Position numbers and translations under genes: made by a program
Assembly (NCBI GenBank): GCA_030272585.1
Contig: BSYQ01000007.1
Span: 4,220,001-4,284,000, forward strand
DNA from: Bryopsis sp. KO-2023
Taxonomy: Eukaryota > Chlorophyta > Ulvophyceae > Bryopsidales > Bryopsidaceae
Length of the DNA stretch: 64,000 nucleotides
Direction of reading: 5' to 3'
The notes under the pieces: model-generated
Database searches by the model: none
Seen by the model: the letters and a program-made list of their open reading frames with translations, nothing else
What the model was told of the DNA's origin: nothing
Part shown: one piece after another, positions 3 to 26,978 of the stretch
Layout: each line of letters opens with the position of its first letter
Numbering within the stretch: position 1 is the first letter of the stretch

Positions 3-71
3 AAACATGACGTTCCTTTGGAGCAGGTCAAGATGTTGAACGTCACCGTCAAAGATGCTAATGCTGCATAG
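3..71 (+). CDS. Possible 3' end of a gene entering from the left edge (partial)
   Basis: The reading frame starting at base 3 is open from the window edge and ends at a TAG at 69-71. It reads KHDVPLEQVKMLNVTVKDAN followed by two alanines, which has ordinary protein-like composition. Directly after the stop comes an AG-rich run (about 77-115), as expected for a 3' untranslated region. Only 22 residues are visible, so no family can be named, and chance is not excluded. Confidence 0.35.
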   Translation, partial: KHDVPLEQVKMLNVTVKDANAA

Positions 72-1097
72 GGGGAAAAGAAAGAAAAAGAGAGAGAGAG
101 AGAGAAAAAAAGAGTCGGACGAGTTTGTCAAATCTAGCTGGATCCGACTGCTTTGTGGAAATCGCTCGCTGCAATAGGGGTGCTCATGGGTGTGTTTTTT
201 TTGAACAGTTTGGGGAAACCTTTGATGATCTTATTCATGCCAATTCGACATTTGGAAGGAGGTTTATTTTCACCTCCATCTGGCACAGCTACGTTCGAAC
301 TATCACCAACCCCAAAAGAGATAATGTCGTTAGGTGTACATTTGATTCATTTTACAACATGCACCTTGGCCCTGCAATCAATCTTGAAAAAAGATTCCCT
401 TGTCCCTACTGGGTTGATGCTTGCATCTGTATCTTCGTCAGTTTGGAAGGAAAATGTTAAATTGAAGGGCTCCAGCGTAAGAAAAGAAACACTGCAAAGG
501 CACACATCTGGGGGATGGTTGAAAATGGAATTCGTCTCGTTTCAACACCCTACATAACTGTTGAGGGGTCTGTTTATTTTGGAGTTCCTGTTGTATTTTT
601 AGCTTGTCGGGTCTCAGTGCACCTATGACTCCTCCGCATCCACCTGGCTCTCTGAAAATTGGATATTCTGAGGAGAAAAAAGTGTTGCTCCGGGTGGCCC
701 CTCGCCTTTCAAGAACTTGGCTCCCAGAAAAAGAAGGGCGATTCAACCCAACATCGACGAGTTCTGCACGAGACGTAAGCGGCCTGTTATTTTTCCGTGA
801 AGACCGTTTTGTAATTATTATTTGGAAAAGACGGAGTGTGTTGTGGTTTACAAGTTGTGGAAGGGAAGGGTGGGATAGTGATTTAGAGCTGGAGTGCTTT
901 GCATGGAAAATCAAGCATGAAGCTGGGAGGCACACCCAGATGGACTTTTTCTGGACGCCCTCTTTTCTTTGATAGGGGGTCATCCGTTTGGAACATCCCT
1001 GGACTCGGGTCGAACGATGCAAAGCAAGAGACACCTGCGAAATCACCACCTCCAAACACAAACAAAAACACAAAAACGCACACACTTGGAAAATAAA
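72..1097. other. Unresolved stretch left of the inverted repeat
   Basis: Several overlapping frames are open on both strands between 125 and 970, none with a recognisable domain. The minus strand between about 130 and 400 reads as moderately protein-like, but an in-frame TGA breaks it and no splice sites rescue it. It could be a decayed gene, part of a mobile element that includes the neighbouring inverted repeat, or non-coding DNA of balanced composition. Confidence 0.3.
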
Positions 1098-1445
1098 GGG
1101 AAAGCACAGAAAAAGGGCAGACGAGAAAAAGCATGAGAAAGTGAGCCGGGTGTTGGCCTGGCCTTCGAACGCTGTTCGAAGGCTCAGTTTCCAGGGGACA
1201 CCACGAGGAGGTCCCCGGCTACCGCCCCCCACGCACCTTTTTCGCAGCCCGCTAGCTCGTAGCGATTCTTCCTCTCGGCTTGGGGAACGGAAGAGGGAAC
1301 CGTCGCAGGGTCGAACCTGTTTCCTGCACGACAGAAACGGGGACAGGTCAAAAGTTGTCGACGAGATAAACCGTAGCATGCAAGGAAAGGAACCATGCAC
1401 CTTTTTATCGAGAAAGATGGGTGTACTGCATAGCAACTGATTGTT
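1098..1445 (+). repeat. Left arm of a large inverted repeat
   Basis: The reverse complement of this arm recurs at 1513-1862. By eye the arms match almost base for base over about 335 positions, with only scattered mismatches. The similarity becomes patchy towards the loop (1431-1445) and, on the outer side, fades into a weaker match reaching about 1045. The outer part of the arm carries its own short palindrome at 1161-1183 (GCCTTCGAAC, 3-base loop, GTTCGAAGGC). No transposase gene is seen between or beside the arms. Confidence 0.9.
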
Positions 1446-1512
1446 CACAACGACCTCTGAGACGGTCAAGCGGTTGAAACTCGGTACAGTTACTGACCCA
1501 TTCGAAACCACC

Positions 1513-1862
1513 TCGTGAATAGCTGGCGTGCGGTACACCCATCTTTCTCGATAAAAACGTGCATGGTTCCTTTCCTTGCATGCTACGGTTTATCTCGTCG
1601 ACAACTTTTGACCTGTCCCCGTTTCTGTCGTGCAGGAAACAGGTTCGACCCTGCGACGGTTCCCTCTTCCGTTCCCCAAGCCGAGAGGAAGAATCGCTAC
1701 GAGCTAGCGGGCTGCGAAAAAGGTGCGTGGGGGGCGGTAGCCGGGGACCTCCTCGTGGTGCCCCCTGGAAACTGAGCCTTCGAACAGCGTTCGAAGGCCA
1801 GGCCAACACCCGGCTCACTTTCTCATGCTTTTTCTCGTCTGCCTTTTTTCTGTGCTTTCCCT
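1513..1862 (-). repeat. Right arm of a large inverted repeat
   Basis: This is the reverse complement of 1098-1445. The loop between the arms is about 70 bases (1446-1512). Every open frame in one arm has a mirror frame in the other, so the longer open frames here are consequences of the duplication and not independent genes. The short TTCGAA-containing palindrome recurs at about 1778-1800. A transcript across both arms would fold into a hairpin of more than 300 base pairs. A foldback or MITE-like element, or a hairpin RNA source, are the natural readings. Confidence 0.9.
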
Positions 1863-2642
1863 GTTTCTTTTTCTTTTAAGTTTGTGCGTGTGTTTGTGTT
1901 TCTGTTTTGGAGGTGTTGTTCTGTTCGCAAGAGTCCGCCGTCCCTTCTTGTCGTGGTGCGCATTGATACTCCTGGCAGCCAGGGGTTTCTGTTCCTGGTG
2001 CTCTTGGATGGACTCCAAGTGACTTCACACGATCTACGGTGGTGGGTTCAGGCACCCTGAACATATGTGTTGTTTGCGACAAATCTGGAAGAGAACAATC
2101 GACCTGGCTTCTAATCCAAATCCATGAGACATCAAAGATAGGTCCAAAAAAAAATAAAAAATTCCTCCCTGCAGGGTAGGGAGGTCATTTTCCGTTTTTT
2201 TCAACATACTTGAGGTGTGGGGACATATTTAGCCGGTGATTTTTGCCAAAACGAAAAAGAAGCGCGTCTTCGTTGCATAGAACCAGACACTTGGATTCGA
2301 AATCTTTTTCTCAGCCCTCGACAGACAGTGGACATTCTTTTAAAGGCATTACAAAAAAATACATATCAAAACCACCCCAGACAAGCCACACAGCCTCCAC
2401 AAACAAATTCAAAAAAAAAAAAAGAAAACAATCAGAACGGTGGAAGAGAAATCAAATGGCCATGGAAAGCTCTGGCATTTGGAAAAACTGGAATGAATCA
2501 TAACAAAACCTCAAGCACTCAACCGTCCACAGCCCAGCTGCGTAGTAAGACTCCCCACAGGTCCCTCAAAATAATGAACAGTAAATTTTTCGACTCCAAA
2601 CAGAATCTAATGCCGGTTAGGAAAAAAAAAATGGGGGGACCA
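1863..2642. other. Intergenic, downstream of Rubisco activase
   Basis: The part up to about 1920 is a degenerate continuation of the inverted repeat (GT-rich against CA-rich on the other side). From 2140 on the sequence is A-rich and holds several A-runs (for example 2408-2424). It probably contains the 3' untranslated region of the minus-strand Rubisco activase, which ends at 2643. No gene is supported here. Confidence 0.5.
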
Positions 2643-5600
2643 TCATCCTTGGAAACCAATCAGGCCTCCAGCGACTTGCCCGAGGTCTTTCATATAATCC
2701 TTGGACAGTTTGAAATCATTCACGTTTTGCTGCTCCTGGGCGAGTCGATCTCCTTCTTCGATCAAAGCTTCCACAGTGAGTTGCACAGGTTTGAATTCCG
2801 GGAGGTTTTCCTTTTTGATGAGTCGTCGGCCCAAGTCAGACATATCGGCTTCTTCGTCTATGACATCCGATTCTGATGGGAAAAAACAAAAACAAAAGAG
2901 GAAACACATATCAGTTTTGACCTCATCGACGATATTCGAAGTGAAGGATGAATTCAGCAGCAATGGTGACTTTTTTTTCTGTTTTATTTATTTTATTTTA
3001 GTTTGCGATTGCAGCAGAAGACAGCATCACAGGAAATATGTACAAAAAAATTAAATTAACACAGTTATGAATTTCCTCCATCACATGAACTCACCAATGA
3101 CATCATCAGTAATCCAGTTCCGAATTTGATTGTCATAGGTAGAGGCTCGCAACGCTCCAAAGAAATCCAGAGCTAAAATAAATCAAAGTATCAAATCTTC
3201 AAGAAAACCAATCCACATTTCTTTTTTTTTTCCAAATTCCATGAATCCTGCACATATCTTCTTTCATGGAAAAATAGGAAAAAACCGGCCCGTTTCCCAA
3301 ATTTCATAAATTTCGCAGCGAAAACAGCATTATATTGTCCCGAACAAGTGCTTTCTGCTATGGTTTTCTCTGTCCCCCTCCTATTATTCCCCTCTTTTTC
3401 TTGTATCTTACGTTGGTCTGGAAATCTTTCCCTTAGCGTAGCAATTTCCTCTCGTTGCAACCCATCGTCCTTGTACATCTGATACACGATATCCACCACC
3501 TCATCGCCAGTCGGCGACCAATACATTTTCTCCATCCGGCCATCACGAACCAGAGGAGCATAGACTGTACTGAAATCATTTCCTGAAGAGCGAACCATCA
3601 AAAACAAACGTTACACACATGACTCTGTCGTCCAAAGGAACTAAATAAAAAGCCGGACAAAAAAGAGGAAAACAGAAGAAAAACAGAAGAAAAAAACCAA
3701 AAATAGAAATGCTCCAGCTCACACCGCTTCTAAATCTTTCGAAAATGGAAAAATGGCACGGCTTTAATAACACCACACAATCGCATATCCAACCACAACA
3801 GGATTTTAAACCACTCTTTTCAGGGCTGAGAGTAAAATGCAATCACTGACTTTTTTTTCTGCTGTCACCATTTTCTTGGCTTTTTTAAAGCTATTTCCTG
3901 TATTTCTGGCTCCAGCAAGGGGGGTATTGGATGACTAATAACTTGTTGGATATTCTGTCATTACCTGTCACGATGATGGGAACCCTTTGGAGCTTTTTAT
4001 CCGATCGCCATGCTTCCCCTAAGCTGGCCTGGTCGGGATGATCGCAGATATTCATGAGCGTACCCACAACAATCTGGTTGTTCACAGTCACCTGGAGGTA
4101 AAACATCGACACACCAACAATACAATTCAGGAAAAAAAAAGTCTCCACTCTGCAAGCAACTGCCATCGTCGTGTTGAGGTGTAGTTCAGCAGGGTACATT
4201 CAATAAAACATAAAAACTTGGGGATCTTTCCTTCTCATATTTGTTCAAAAGAATAGATGGGCAAGTCTCTGCGTAGCCTTTCCTGAATTTTTTCCCAAGG
4301 ACTGACACATGCTCAACACCCCCAACCGAGGGATTTCCCAATCTAACCCATACGGAGAAGAACAGCATAATTTCACCCTAGAACACTTTTTTCCGATCAT
4401 GGATGACTGCCCTGGAACAAAATGACACAATGCGTCTTTTTTCTTTGTCAAGAATTCCGGTTCCTGTAACTTTCCCCGATAAATTTTGCCATTTTAATAC
4501 TCATGCTTAGGCTACCTGAGTGTTGTCAAATCTGCCCACGCCAGCATCCAAGTCGTTGATCAGCAGACATGTGAGTTTCCCTCGGACCGACGACATTTCG
4601 GATGCCTTTCGGTACCTTTCACGGATCATCCGGCCAGGAGTTCCTGCCCATTCGTGTTCGAGCTCCCCAGCACTCATTATCACTGGCAAAACTCTACCAA
4701 AAGAAAAAAAAGAAAAAAACCTAAATATCAACGAATAGAAACAGGCGACAAAATAGTAGATACATTTATCAAGTAGATTCCGTTTAATTCAACACATTCG
4801 GGCGGCGAGTTTTTCGTGGCAGATTTACAATTCGAAGAATACAATACTTCTTTTTCAAACTTTTTTATTTAAAAAAATATCACTCTGCCGAGGTGTTTTT
4901 CCCATTCATGGCAGCGGTTTGTGTGCATCTTTTTTGGCCTTTTGTTTAAACTCAAAAAAGGCCAAAAAATTTCATGGATGTGAAGCAAAAAGAAGGGGAT
5001 ATGCACCCACCCCATTTTCTTGAAGGCCAACTCTGTTTGGAAGCTTTTTCCGGTTCCTGCATCACACGTTTGCGATTATGGCAACTCCCAAAAGTAAAAA
5101 AAATAAAAAAATACTTAAAAATAAAAAATAAAAAAAAATGAATGAATAAATAAACATGTACAAATGCATATCCAACTACTGAACAGCGTTTTCGGGTCGA
5201 TGCAAAACAGCCGAAAGGTGCCGAGAAAAAGAAAAAAAAGAGAATCCTTACATAATCTGCCTTTTTATATACCCACAAACATAGAAGCTGTTTTTGGTGC
5301 AATTTTCTTTTTTTTTGTCCATTGGTTCAAAGGTTTTACCAACCTTTGAAAACCTTTGAAGGAAATACCTTTCGGACCCCAGATCCCAAGGATCAAGGGA
5401 ACGTTTGCCAAGCCGGGCAAGGATCCTTGTGCCATCAAATAGTTCTTGGCAATGTGCATCTGCGATAACGTCGCCAAAGCTCAAATTTGTTTTACCTACA
5501 TGATGAAAACCCCCTATACTCATGTAAAAAAACATTCGCATATTTTTCCCTTAAACAATACCAGGAGGGGGGTGGAGGAAAAAAAAATAAAAATCAAAGG

Positions 5601-25478: not shown

Positions 25479-26978
25479 ATGAATATTATATTCGACCTGG
25501 ACAGTACGCTCATTGACGCCCAGTACTCGATGGGGGGAAAGGCAGCGTTCGTGATGGGCAGGCAAGGACCTGCACACGTGTGCGGGAAGGAGCTTTGCAA
25601 CCTATACATTTACAAGCGTCCCGGAGTCGACGACTTGCTGGAATGGTGCTTTCAAAACTGCGAAAACGTTGGTGAGTGTTCAAAAGCAGCTCTTCAACCG
25701 TTTCTGCGGGTACAAGTGTGTGAGGCCTCCCACACCGACACCAGACAGTGAAATTTTTCGTTGAAAAAGCCAGGATGCCATCCCGTTCGCTGAGCACCCG
25801 TTTCGCGTGCAACAGGCATGTGGACCCTTTCCGGTCCAAAGTGGGTGGATGAGGTTCTAACTCACGTGCTCAAGGGCTTCCCTAGAGAGCGCTGGAGCTT
25901 TATTTGGACTGGGGAGAGGGCTACCCGCTTAACGTTGCAGTCAACTCGAGACATATCTGCAGACGCTGTGGTTCTCGAGGGTCGAAAGGTCGTGAAAGAC
26001 CTTAAGAAAGTCTTCCGGCAACAGGTGAGCTCAGGAACGTTTGGCTGTGTAAGCGTGGCTCGTGTGGTGGCGTGGGCAGCCGGGCCCGCTGGATTAGGCA
26101 TAGGTGTCACAAATTTTTGGCGGAATCACTAACAGCATGGTGACAACTGGCCCAACACCTCTCAAACATCGAGAACTGAACTGAGCATAGCAATACATTT
26201 CAGTACAATGCATGGAAAAGGATGGAGGCTTGGTTGCATTCACTACCAACAGAAGGCACACACATTGGAGGTTTGTGTGGGAAAAAAACGAAATAGCATC
26301 TCAGCGTATGCGTTTGTGTGTTGTGGTGGTCAGGGGTTGCGGAAGAAGGGTTACCGGCGCAATAACACGATTATCGTTGAAGATACCCCTAGCAACTGTG
26401 CCCGGAACTATGGAAATGGCATATTCGTTTCACCGTTCGACATTCTGAAGTGCAGCACTCCGGACCGCGAACTCCCGATGCTGCAAAAATACCTAGAAAC
26501 CTTCGTGCTAGGAAAGGATGATGTGAGGGAAATTTACAAAAGGAATTGGCTGGCATCAGTGGGACAGCTCGAGAAGAAAGAAGAGGGGGAAAAAAAGCTT
26601 TCTGCGGGAGTCAGCAGAAAGACTTGCTTCTGGATGTCTCAAGAGTTGGAAGAAAACGAGAAGAAGCAAAAGCTTTCCGTGGGGATCAGCAGAAAAACTT
26701 GTTTCTGGATGTCCCAAGAGTTGGAAGAAAACGAAAAGAAGCAGTGCAGCCCCTCGACCTCTCCGAAACATGGCTGCTTCTGGATGTGCGAAAGCTGGGA
26801 CAAAGTAAAGACTGGCATCAGCAGCCACACTTCGTTGAGCAGGAGTAAAAAGTACGGAAAAGAAGATAAATGCGGGCCAGCCAAAGAATGTGCAGCGCAA
26901 AAGGGGTCATGGCTGTCGACAAATTGGAGCCACCAAATGAAGGAGCAATTTAGAAAAGTTGCTGCCTGTCATACCTGA
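25479..26978 (+). CDS. FCP1/SCP-like (NIF domain) phosphatase with repeat-rich tail
   Basis: Three exons, 25479-25671, 25816-26024 and 26334-26978, give 348 residues in phase. The start MNIIFDLDSTLID holds the catalytic DxDxT motif of HAD phosphatases of the FCP1/SCP type. Later blocks are YKRPGVDDLLEWCF, SFIWTGERATRLTLQ, KVVKDLKKVF and NNTIIVEDTPSN (the HAD acidic loop), then a region reading GNGIFVSPFDI. Such enzymes remove phosphate from serine in proteins such as the RNA polymerase II tail; the substrate here is not known. After about residue 205 the protein changes into a tandem array: two near-identical 25-residue units with RKTCFWMSQELEENEKKQ, a third with HGCFWMCESWDKV, and a last SWLSTNWSHQ. 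No transmembrane segment is seen. Confidence 0.85.
26595..26744 (+). repeat. Two tandem 75-base coding repeats
   Basis: Units at 26595-26669 and 26670-26744 encode 25 residues each and differ at only a few positions (A/V and V/I near the start). A third, diverged unit follows at about 26745-26820 and keeps the CFWM core. The unit is an exact number of codons, so gain or loss of copies keeps the frame. Confidence 0.9.

Follow-up and report, generated by a model that had tools for sequence, protein, structure and literature searches.

The window (the whole 64,000-nucleotide stretch of DNA analyzed, C7:4220001-4284000 of a 91 Mb genome of 28 contigs) contains a large inverted repeat close to its start. 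This raises the questions of whether the palindrome is real, what its arms specify, and what keeps them alike.

The Inverted Repeat and Its Surroundings

A search of the window for inverted repeats of at least 40 nt and no more than 3000 bases apart (seed 12) identified arms at 1090-1430 and 1529-1869, which are 341 nt long, 98% complementary, and separated by a spacer of 98 nt. It is the sole inverted repeat found that is not of low complexity; the other four pairs are low-complexity sequences of 40-55 nt that are 73-81% alike. When 1097-1430 is aligned to 1529-1862, 4 of 334 places are mismatched (1115/1844, 1198/1761, 1401/1558, and 1427/1532), which bears out the near-perfect repeat of the original prediction. 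Its nearly complete match between arms stands, but the inner ends it gave, 1445 and 1513, both fall within the loop, which measures 98 rather than about 70 bases. A weaker outward match to about 1045 and 1920 had also been described and was recovered in two parts, 1060-1103/1864-1907 (73%) and 1044-1056/1906-1918 (92%). Folded as RNA, 1045-1920 has an energy of -795.1 kcal/mol versus -293.9 ± 6.9 kcal/mol for shuffled sequences (n = 20). An assembly fold-back, already disfavored at the outset, is further disfavored because the same layout occurs with diverged sequence at two more places on the same contig and because the arms are not bordered by the same sequence, either in the loop or in the outer flanks. 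The inverted repeat at 1090-1869 is real.

Inverted-repeat search and arm alignment delimit one ribozyme unit per arm, reading leftward on the minus strand from the left arm (1090-1430) and rightward on the plus strand from the right arm (1529-1869). Comparison with other loci suggests that the loop (1431-1528, no strand assigned) is an upstream region common to both units. Of its 98 bases, 96 align at 99% identity with the single-arm locus C9, and identity to loci C7a, C7b, and C8 is 77-81%. The right outer flank (1870-2140, plus strand) is likewise homologous to C9, with indels that are not multiples of three. A protein-coding reading of the arms was rejected: long ORFs span both arms, but copies differ by nontriplet indels and some stop early (by eye). 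No Pfam match was found for the 366-aa ORF over the left arm, and neither tRNA genes nor Rfam families at gathering threshold were found in the window or 16 fetched loci.

The gene near the repeat, on the minus strand, matches rubisco activase (window 3191-3607, best E 4.5e-16). The match points to a probably photosynthetic organism, and the window is probably part of an algal chromosome. It extends over window 2643-4200, has introns, and its 3' end faces the inverted repeat. Elsewhere in the window, at 26593-26743, a 75-bp unit is present in two tandem copies, its length divisible by three.

Each Arm Contains a Predicted HDV-Like Ribozyme

A permissive Rfam scan of 900-2200 placed HDV_ribozyme (RF00094) on both arms, with scores of 29.1 and 24.9 bits; the model aligns end to end in each, with the conserved L3 and the J4/2 C placed. 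On the basis of this alignment, covariation, and cross-subfamily models, a ribozyme is predicted at 1729-1815 on the plus strand of the right arm. Its predicted helices are P1 (1729-1735 with 1760-1766), P2 (1739-1745 with 1809-1815), and P4 (1772-1801), with the catalytic C at 1803 and cleavage predicted between 1728 and 1729. The left-arm ribozyme, predicted on the same basis, occupies 1144-1230 on the minus strand, with the corresponding C at 1156, cleavage predicted between 1231 and 1230, and one P1 pair that is G-U, not G-C (position 1198). Both predicted ribozymes point outward from the loop. The TTCGAA palindrome noted at the outset in each arm is present at 1161-1183 and 1776-1798; inverted-repeat search and fold alignment identify the former as the P4 hairpin of the left ribozyme (minus strand) and the latter as part of the P4 hairpin of the right one (plus strand).

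The RF00094 gathering score of 50 bits is reached by no site in the genome (best 41.1), and the whole-genome search returned 12 sub-threshold matches. Sub-threshold matches were also found in 4 of 14 control genomes, so RF00094 scores alone are not decisive. Because the cut-off is not reached, the arms are assigned to the HDV-like fold class rather than to RF00094.

The Ribozymes Belong to a Dispersed Family

Used as a DNA query, one arm has 16 matches in its own genome, located in the window and at 12 other loci, and the RF00094 search added six more loci. A degenerate core pattern fitted to family members and allowing up to three mismatches (cores with indels would be missed) matched 26 times: 22 without mismatches, none with one or two, and four with three, one of which is the opposite strand of a member. 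The reversed pattern, used as a control, matched once. Together, there are 22 ribozymes at 19 loci on nine contigs, comprising 15 type A loci (18 sites) and four type B loci. No exact match to the core pattern was found in viral contigs. Bacterial and archaeal genomes have at least 117, mostly in G+C-rich actinobacteria, and these are taken as chance because a model built from subfamily A, allowed E up to 1, has no match at the pattern places of the 80 listed loci.

Full mirror pairs are present at 3 of the 19 loci (the window, C7a, and C7b), all on the same contig, with the C7a hairpin at ~4348863-4349532 and that of C7b at ~4451161-4451824. For 15 of 19 loci, no inverted arm match clear of shuffles was found in the 1100 bases upstream; the 16-nt inverted matches of C6 and C1f slightly exceed the shuffle maximum. 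Locus C10 has a 63-bp inverted match (90%) to the inner arm upstream, plus another of 18 bp, without a second ribozyme; this feature was also picked up as a 72% palindrome. This second-arm stump (L015), ~375 to 283 bases upstream of the core, could be a pair that lost an arm or one that is part-made. Given the stump without a ribozyme, single-arm copies may in part be hairpins that have lost an arm.

Compensatory Changes Support the Fold

Across the 18 subfamily A sequences (16 distinct) in which P1, P2, P3, and P4 were scored, 94.6% of helix cells pair and 10 of 28 pairs changed on both sides. Pairing percentage, number of double changes, and covariation score all lie beyond every one of 500 shuffles; of the five measures, only the number of pair types, which 58 of 500 shuffles reached, fails to stand out. 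With both subfamilies combined (20 distinct sequences), 99.5% of P1 and P3 cells pair and 20 cells are double-changed, values reached by 0 of 500 shuffles, with two of the five measures not above shuffles (122/500 and 361/500). The seven pairs of P1 form in 21 of 22 sites, C9 having six and one unpaired position, and the three pairs of P3 form in all 22. For P2, all cells pair in subfamily A and the 5-bp helix is invariant in the four B sequences. P4 is looser, with 86.9% of cells paired in subfamily A and a shifted register in several copies. A C-N-R-A motif in J4/2 is present in 22 of 22 sites, and its C would, by analogy, be the catalytic C.

Models from one subfamily also detect the other. 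A model of the four B copies recovers 13 of 18 A sites at E < 0.01, including both arms of the window (E 1.7e-4 and 0.0042). A 14th, C9, appears only at E 0.22 and 12.4 bits, no better than background, and four sites (C7c, both of C7a, and C8) are missed. Conversely, the A-only model finds all four B sites (E 9.1e-7 to 1.3e-3). The weakest B site scores 19.8 bits, not far above unrelated matches of the same model in L044 (14.5 bits) and in a bacterial locus (18.2 bits), so neither that site nor C9 is strong alone. The L044 match, at 3781-3920 (14.5 bits, E 0.052), is 1.1 kb downstream of a type B ribozyme and is probably background. When alignments were folded against shuffled columns, the ribozymes had z scores of -5.4 (A1) and -8.7 (B), with 0 of 100 shuffles as low in either.

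The HDV-like fold of the arms is thus supported by compensatory changes and by cross-subfamily model matches. With a 7-bp P1, P2, P3, and P4 predicted in nested double-pseudoknot order, the arms are placed in the HDV-like ribozyme fold class. A chance ribozyme-like fold, in a G+C-rich palindrome that has another role, would be consistent with Rfam scores under the cut-off and with the presence of the core pattern in bacteria and archaea, where it is mostly in G+C-rich genomes and presumably due to chance among the matches listed. Covariation and cross-model detection oppose it, as does the failure of the A model at the 80 listed loci, and we regard such a coincidence as extremely improbable.

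Arms of the Same Locus Appear to Recombine

Within the mirror-pair loci, arm identities are 99.0%, 100%, and 100% over ~315 bases. Between loci, the arms of C7a and C7b are 92.8% identical (7.2% different) and those of the window are 85.9-85.0% identical to C9, the right arm differing by 14.1%. Arms are more alike within a locus than between related loci, the pattern that marks a palindrome under conversion, and in a tree they group by locus rather than by side. The outer flank (82% over 446 bases) and loop (96.5% over 85 bases) shared by C7a and C7b suggest that their ancestor was probably already a hairpin. Furthermore, the loop is inverted relative to the shared outer flank in three of three pairs (window-C9, C7a-C7b, and C7b-C8). 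From the grouping of arms by locus and the flipping of loops against shared flanks, we infer that arms recombine with each other through gene conversion and loop flipping. Gene conversion was among the explanations first offered for the likeness of the arms, and these patterns support it. Fresh, independent inverted duplications were also considered; they fit the identity of arms but not the shared loop and flank.

Promoter-, Leader-, and Splice-Like Features Differ Between Subfamilies

A TATA-like ATAAAA is at 1551-1556 (plus strand) in the right unit, where comparison of motifs across loci suggests a promoter; by symmetry, the ATAAAA at 1403-1408 (minus strand) is the putative promoter of the left unit. 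With a motif set picked after looking at the sequences, a TATA-like hexamer precedes the core by 180-205 bases in 11 of 11 A1 loci, counting degenerate forms in C8 and C4b, and TATTTA or TACTTA precedes it by 185-224 bases in 4 of 4 A2 loci. Among A1 loci, conservation is highest in the ribozyme core and the bases immediately preceding it (0.89-0.93 at -40..19 vs. 0.17-0.69 elsewhere). Alignment folding detected no conserved RNA structure in the A1 and A2 leaders (z 0.0, -0.3, and 0.2; 0.0 being the A1 leader), nor was a consistent reading frame seen in type A leaders by eye.

The site comparison also revealed a hexamer, GTGCGT, at 1723-1728 (plus strand) and 1231-1236 (minus strand), which resembles a 5' splice site and ends exactly at the predicted cleavage site. 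Before the predicted cut of type A sites, AG is followed by GTGCGT in 15 of 18 and by GTAAGT, GTACGT, or GCGCGT in one each. The positions that vary are those at which 5' splice sites are lax. Relative to the core, an acceptor-like YAG is located at +163 to +174 in C1b, C7a, C7b, C8, C1d, and C11 and at +201 in C1e; it is changed or absent in some copies (C1a, C1c, and C9; by eye). Downstream of the ribozyme in L019 and L020, a putative short frame starting MSSTHRLSFVGS is common to C1c and C1d (by eye).

Type B loci have a different upstream organization. RNA structure is conserved across the 290 bases that precede the ribozyme (z -7.0, 0 of 100 shuffles), with one of the four rows, C1g, lacking its 5' part in the alignment. 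The structured domain spans ~400 to 110 bases upstream of the ribozymes (L041, L042, L043, and L044) and includes a long-range helix and a hairpin that change on both sides (by eye). Permissive scans of two of the four loci gave no convincing Rfam match for the domain, which may be a new noncoding RNA. In all four copies, a pyrimidine-rich tract ending in TAG stops 2 bases before the predicted cut. The tract looks like a splice acceptor, or AGGYGGGT could be read as a donor. Type A leaders and the type B upstream domain both contain a motif resembling AGCGGGCWGC, which immediately precedes the cut in the former and is ~360 bases upstream in the latter; the likeness may be a coincidence.

The outward orientation bears on whether the locus is a source of long hairpin RNA that dicing would convert into small RNAs, with ribozymes trimming the ends of the hairpin. 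RNA reading through the palindrome would give an almost perfect stem of ~334 bp. However, ribozymes and promoter-like sites both point away from the loop, the conservation seen among loci tracks the ribozyme, and a full second arm is absent at 16 of 19 loci, making this reading very improbable.

The Family and Mobile Elements

Another explanation is that the family is a ribozyme-bearing mobile element, either a nonautonomous retroelement or similar to a retrozyme, and that pairs arose from two insertions or by foldback transposition. Its dispersal over nine contigs is consistent with this, and genomic self-cleaving ribozymes are described as mostly linked to mobile elements (PMC7761336, PMC4035085). 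The genome is also rich in reverse-transcriptase elements: at least 150 matches pass the cut-off, which is all 150 listed of 1978 first-look candidates. Yet the closest of these 150 is 24 kb from a ribozyme locus (C9; by eye), and the lack of cores with one or two mismatches gives no sign of a decay series (cores with indels would escape this search). Conservation also extends upstream of the ribozyme, unlike the case of a ribozyme at the 5' end of an element.

Target-site duplications had been reported as not identifiable at the window locus, and the edges of the 19 loci agree. Between zones -520..-190 and +60..+460, the longest direct repeats are 7-11 nt, compared with means of 7.9-8.5 and maxima of 10-14 in 100 shuffles; none exceeds the largest shuffle and only that of C1g (11) ties it, although the boundaries of the element are not sharply defined and a short duplication might escape notice. 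A scan of 125 ORFs at 18 loci revealed no protein family of mobile elements. These ORFs came from the 150 longest among 389 (minimum 90 aa) in retrieved stretches of 4.5-6.5 kb; this flanking set leaves aside the ORFs of the window locus, five of which were scanned separately, and several over the ribozyme unit. The same 125 ORFs include no downstream reverse transcriptase of the R2 or L1Tc type, and a more distant ORF would be missed. Instead, Pfam neighbors of family loci are ordinary genes, such as those for a ubiquitin-conjugating enzyme, a DEAD helicase, and a relative of ORC2. The left flanks of L014 and L009 share segments of 824 and 1046 bp, 96-99% identical between C7a and C9, which probably represent a young repeat with no relation to the ribozyme unit.

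The foldback transposon or MITE first proposed is therefore not supported, with full arm pairs at 3 of 19 loci, a stump at one more, no direct repeat above shuffles, and no mobile-element protein in the 125 ORFs. For a mobile element, many two-armed copies were to be expected in a genome-wide search with one arm, and both full arms occur at only those three loci. We consider a mobile element to be an unlikely explanation.

A Model of the Locus

We suggest that the locus is probably a head-to-head inverted pair of small noncoding transcription units with HDV-like ribozymes, belonging to one family, whose arms are kept alike by recombination. Transcription would proceed outward on each strand from the TATA-like boxes beside the loop, and each unit would begin with an unstructured leader of ~150 nt. 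The ribozyme, whose fold is identified by comparison, is predicted to cut the outgoing transcript just 5' of P1, ~178 bases past the TATA-like box (1551 to 1729), leaving a 5' product that would end in the splice-donor-like hexamer. Since the predicted cut in subfamily A directly follows this hexamer, cleavage and splicing may compete. Mutual gene conversion and loop flipping would keep the arms nearly identical.

A broader interpretation is possible but is held tentatively. The family could be one of host noncoding RNA genes independent of mobile elements, in which the ribozyme sets the 3' end of an RNA, which in subfamily B is structured, or, in subfamily A, cleaves exactly at the border of a 5' splice site, possibly freeing a leader with a bare donor. 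Some copies would then be palindromic divergent pairs maintained by recombination between arms. If true, the family would be a natural case of RNA ends made by a ribozyme, or of a ribozyme set against the spliceosome. What would make the case is its multicopy nature, together with conservation upstream of the ribozyme, the structured domain of one subfamily, and a predicted cut abutting a donor-like hexamer. The mirror pairs would also provide three small natural palindromes for measuring how gene conversion and inversion of the loop act across a few hundred bases. Searches of open-licence literature listed no paper that describes HDV-like ribozymes from an alga or arranged in palindromic pairs.

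Comparison with Known Systems

To our knowledge, the eukaryotic HDV-like ribozymes with studied roles are in retroelements or in the CPEB3 intron. The known homes described for such ribozymes include R2 and L1Tc/ingi elements and CPEB3 (PMC4035085, PMC8256844, PMC10919898). According to one account of the class, ~60 nucleotides are needed and only six are invariant (PMC8256844); another gives the helix plan and a cut at the first nucleotide of P1 (PMC4908430). Like the HDV, CPEB3, R2, and L1Tc ribozymes, those predicted here form a nested double pseudoknot with a 7-bp P1, P2, a 3-bp P3, and P4. They also share with the class a G-U at the cut (18 of 22 sites), CCUCC at P3/L3, and a catalytic C before N-R-A. 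Unlike others of the class, they do not stand at the 5' start of a visible retroelement, conserved sequence lies upstream of them, and their scores stay under the Rfam cut-off. Three of their loci are mirror pairs, and in subfamily A a donor-like hexamer extends exactly to the predicted cut.

The mammalian CPEB3 ribozyme is intronic, and its cut is proposed to be tuned against splicing (PMC10919898), a likeness to the arrangement suggested for subfamily A. Unlike it, the ribozyme here is multicopy and would begin directly at the predicted donor, at intron position +7. Retrozymes, which are described as having hammerheads in LTRs or tandem repeats (PMC7761336), are similar in being small noncoding repeats with self-cleaving ribozymes, here predicted; they differ in that the motifs here are HDV-like and some are in inverted pairs.

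The third comparison, with palindromes, concerns the arms. Arms of ~330-380 bp are short for palindromes kept by gene conversion. Unlike palindrome P6 of the human Y chromosome, the palindromes here are noncoding and show no sign of belonging to a sex chromosome. Like gene-converted palindromes such as P6, as described in PMC3723533, they are more alike within a locus and their middles are inverted.
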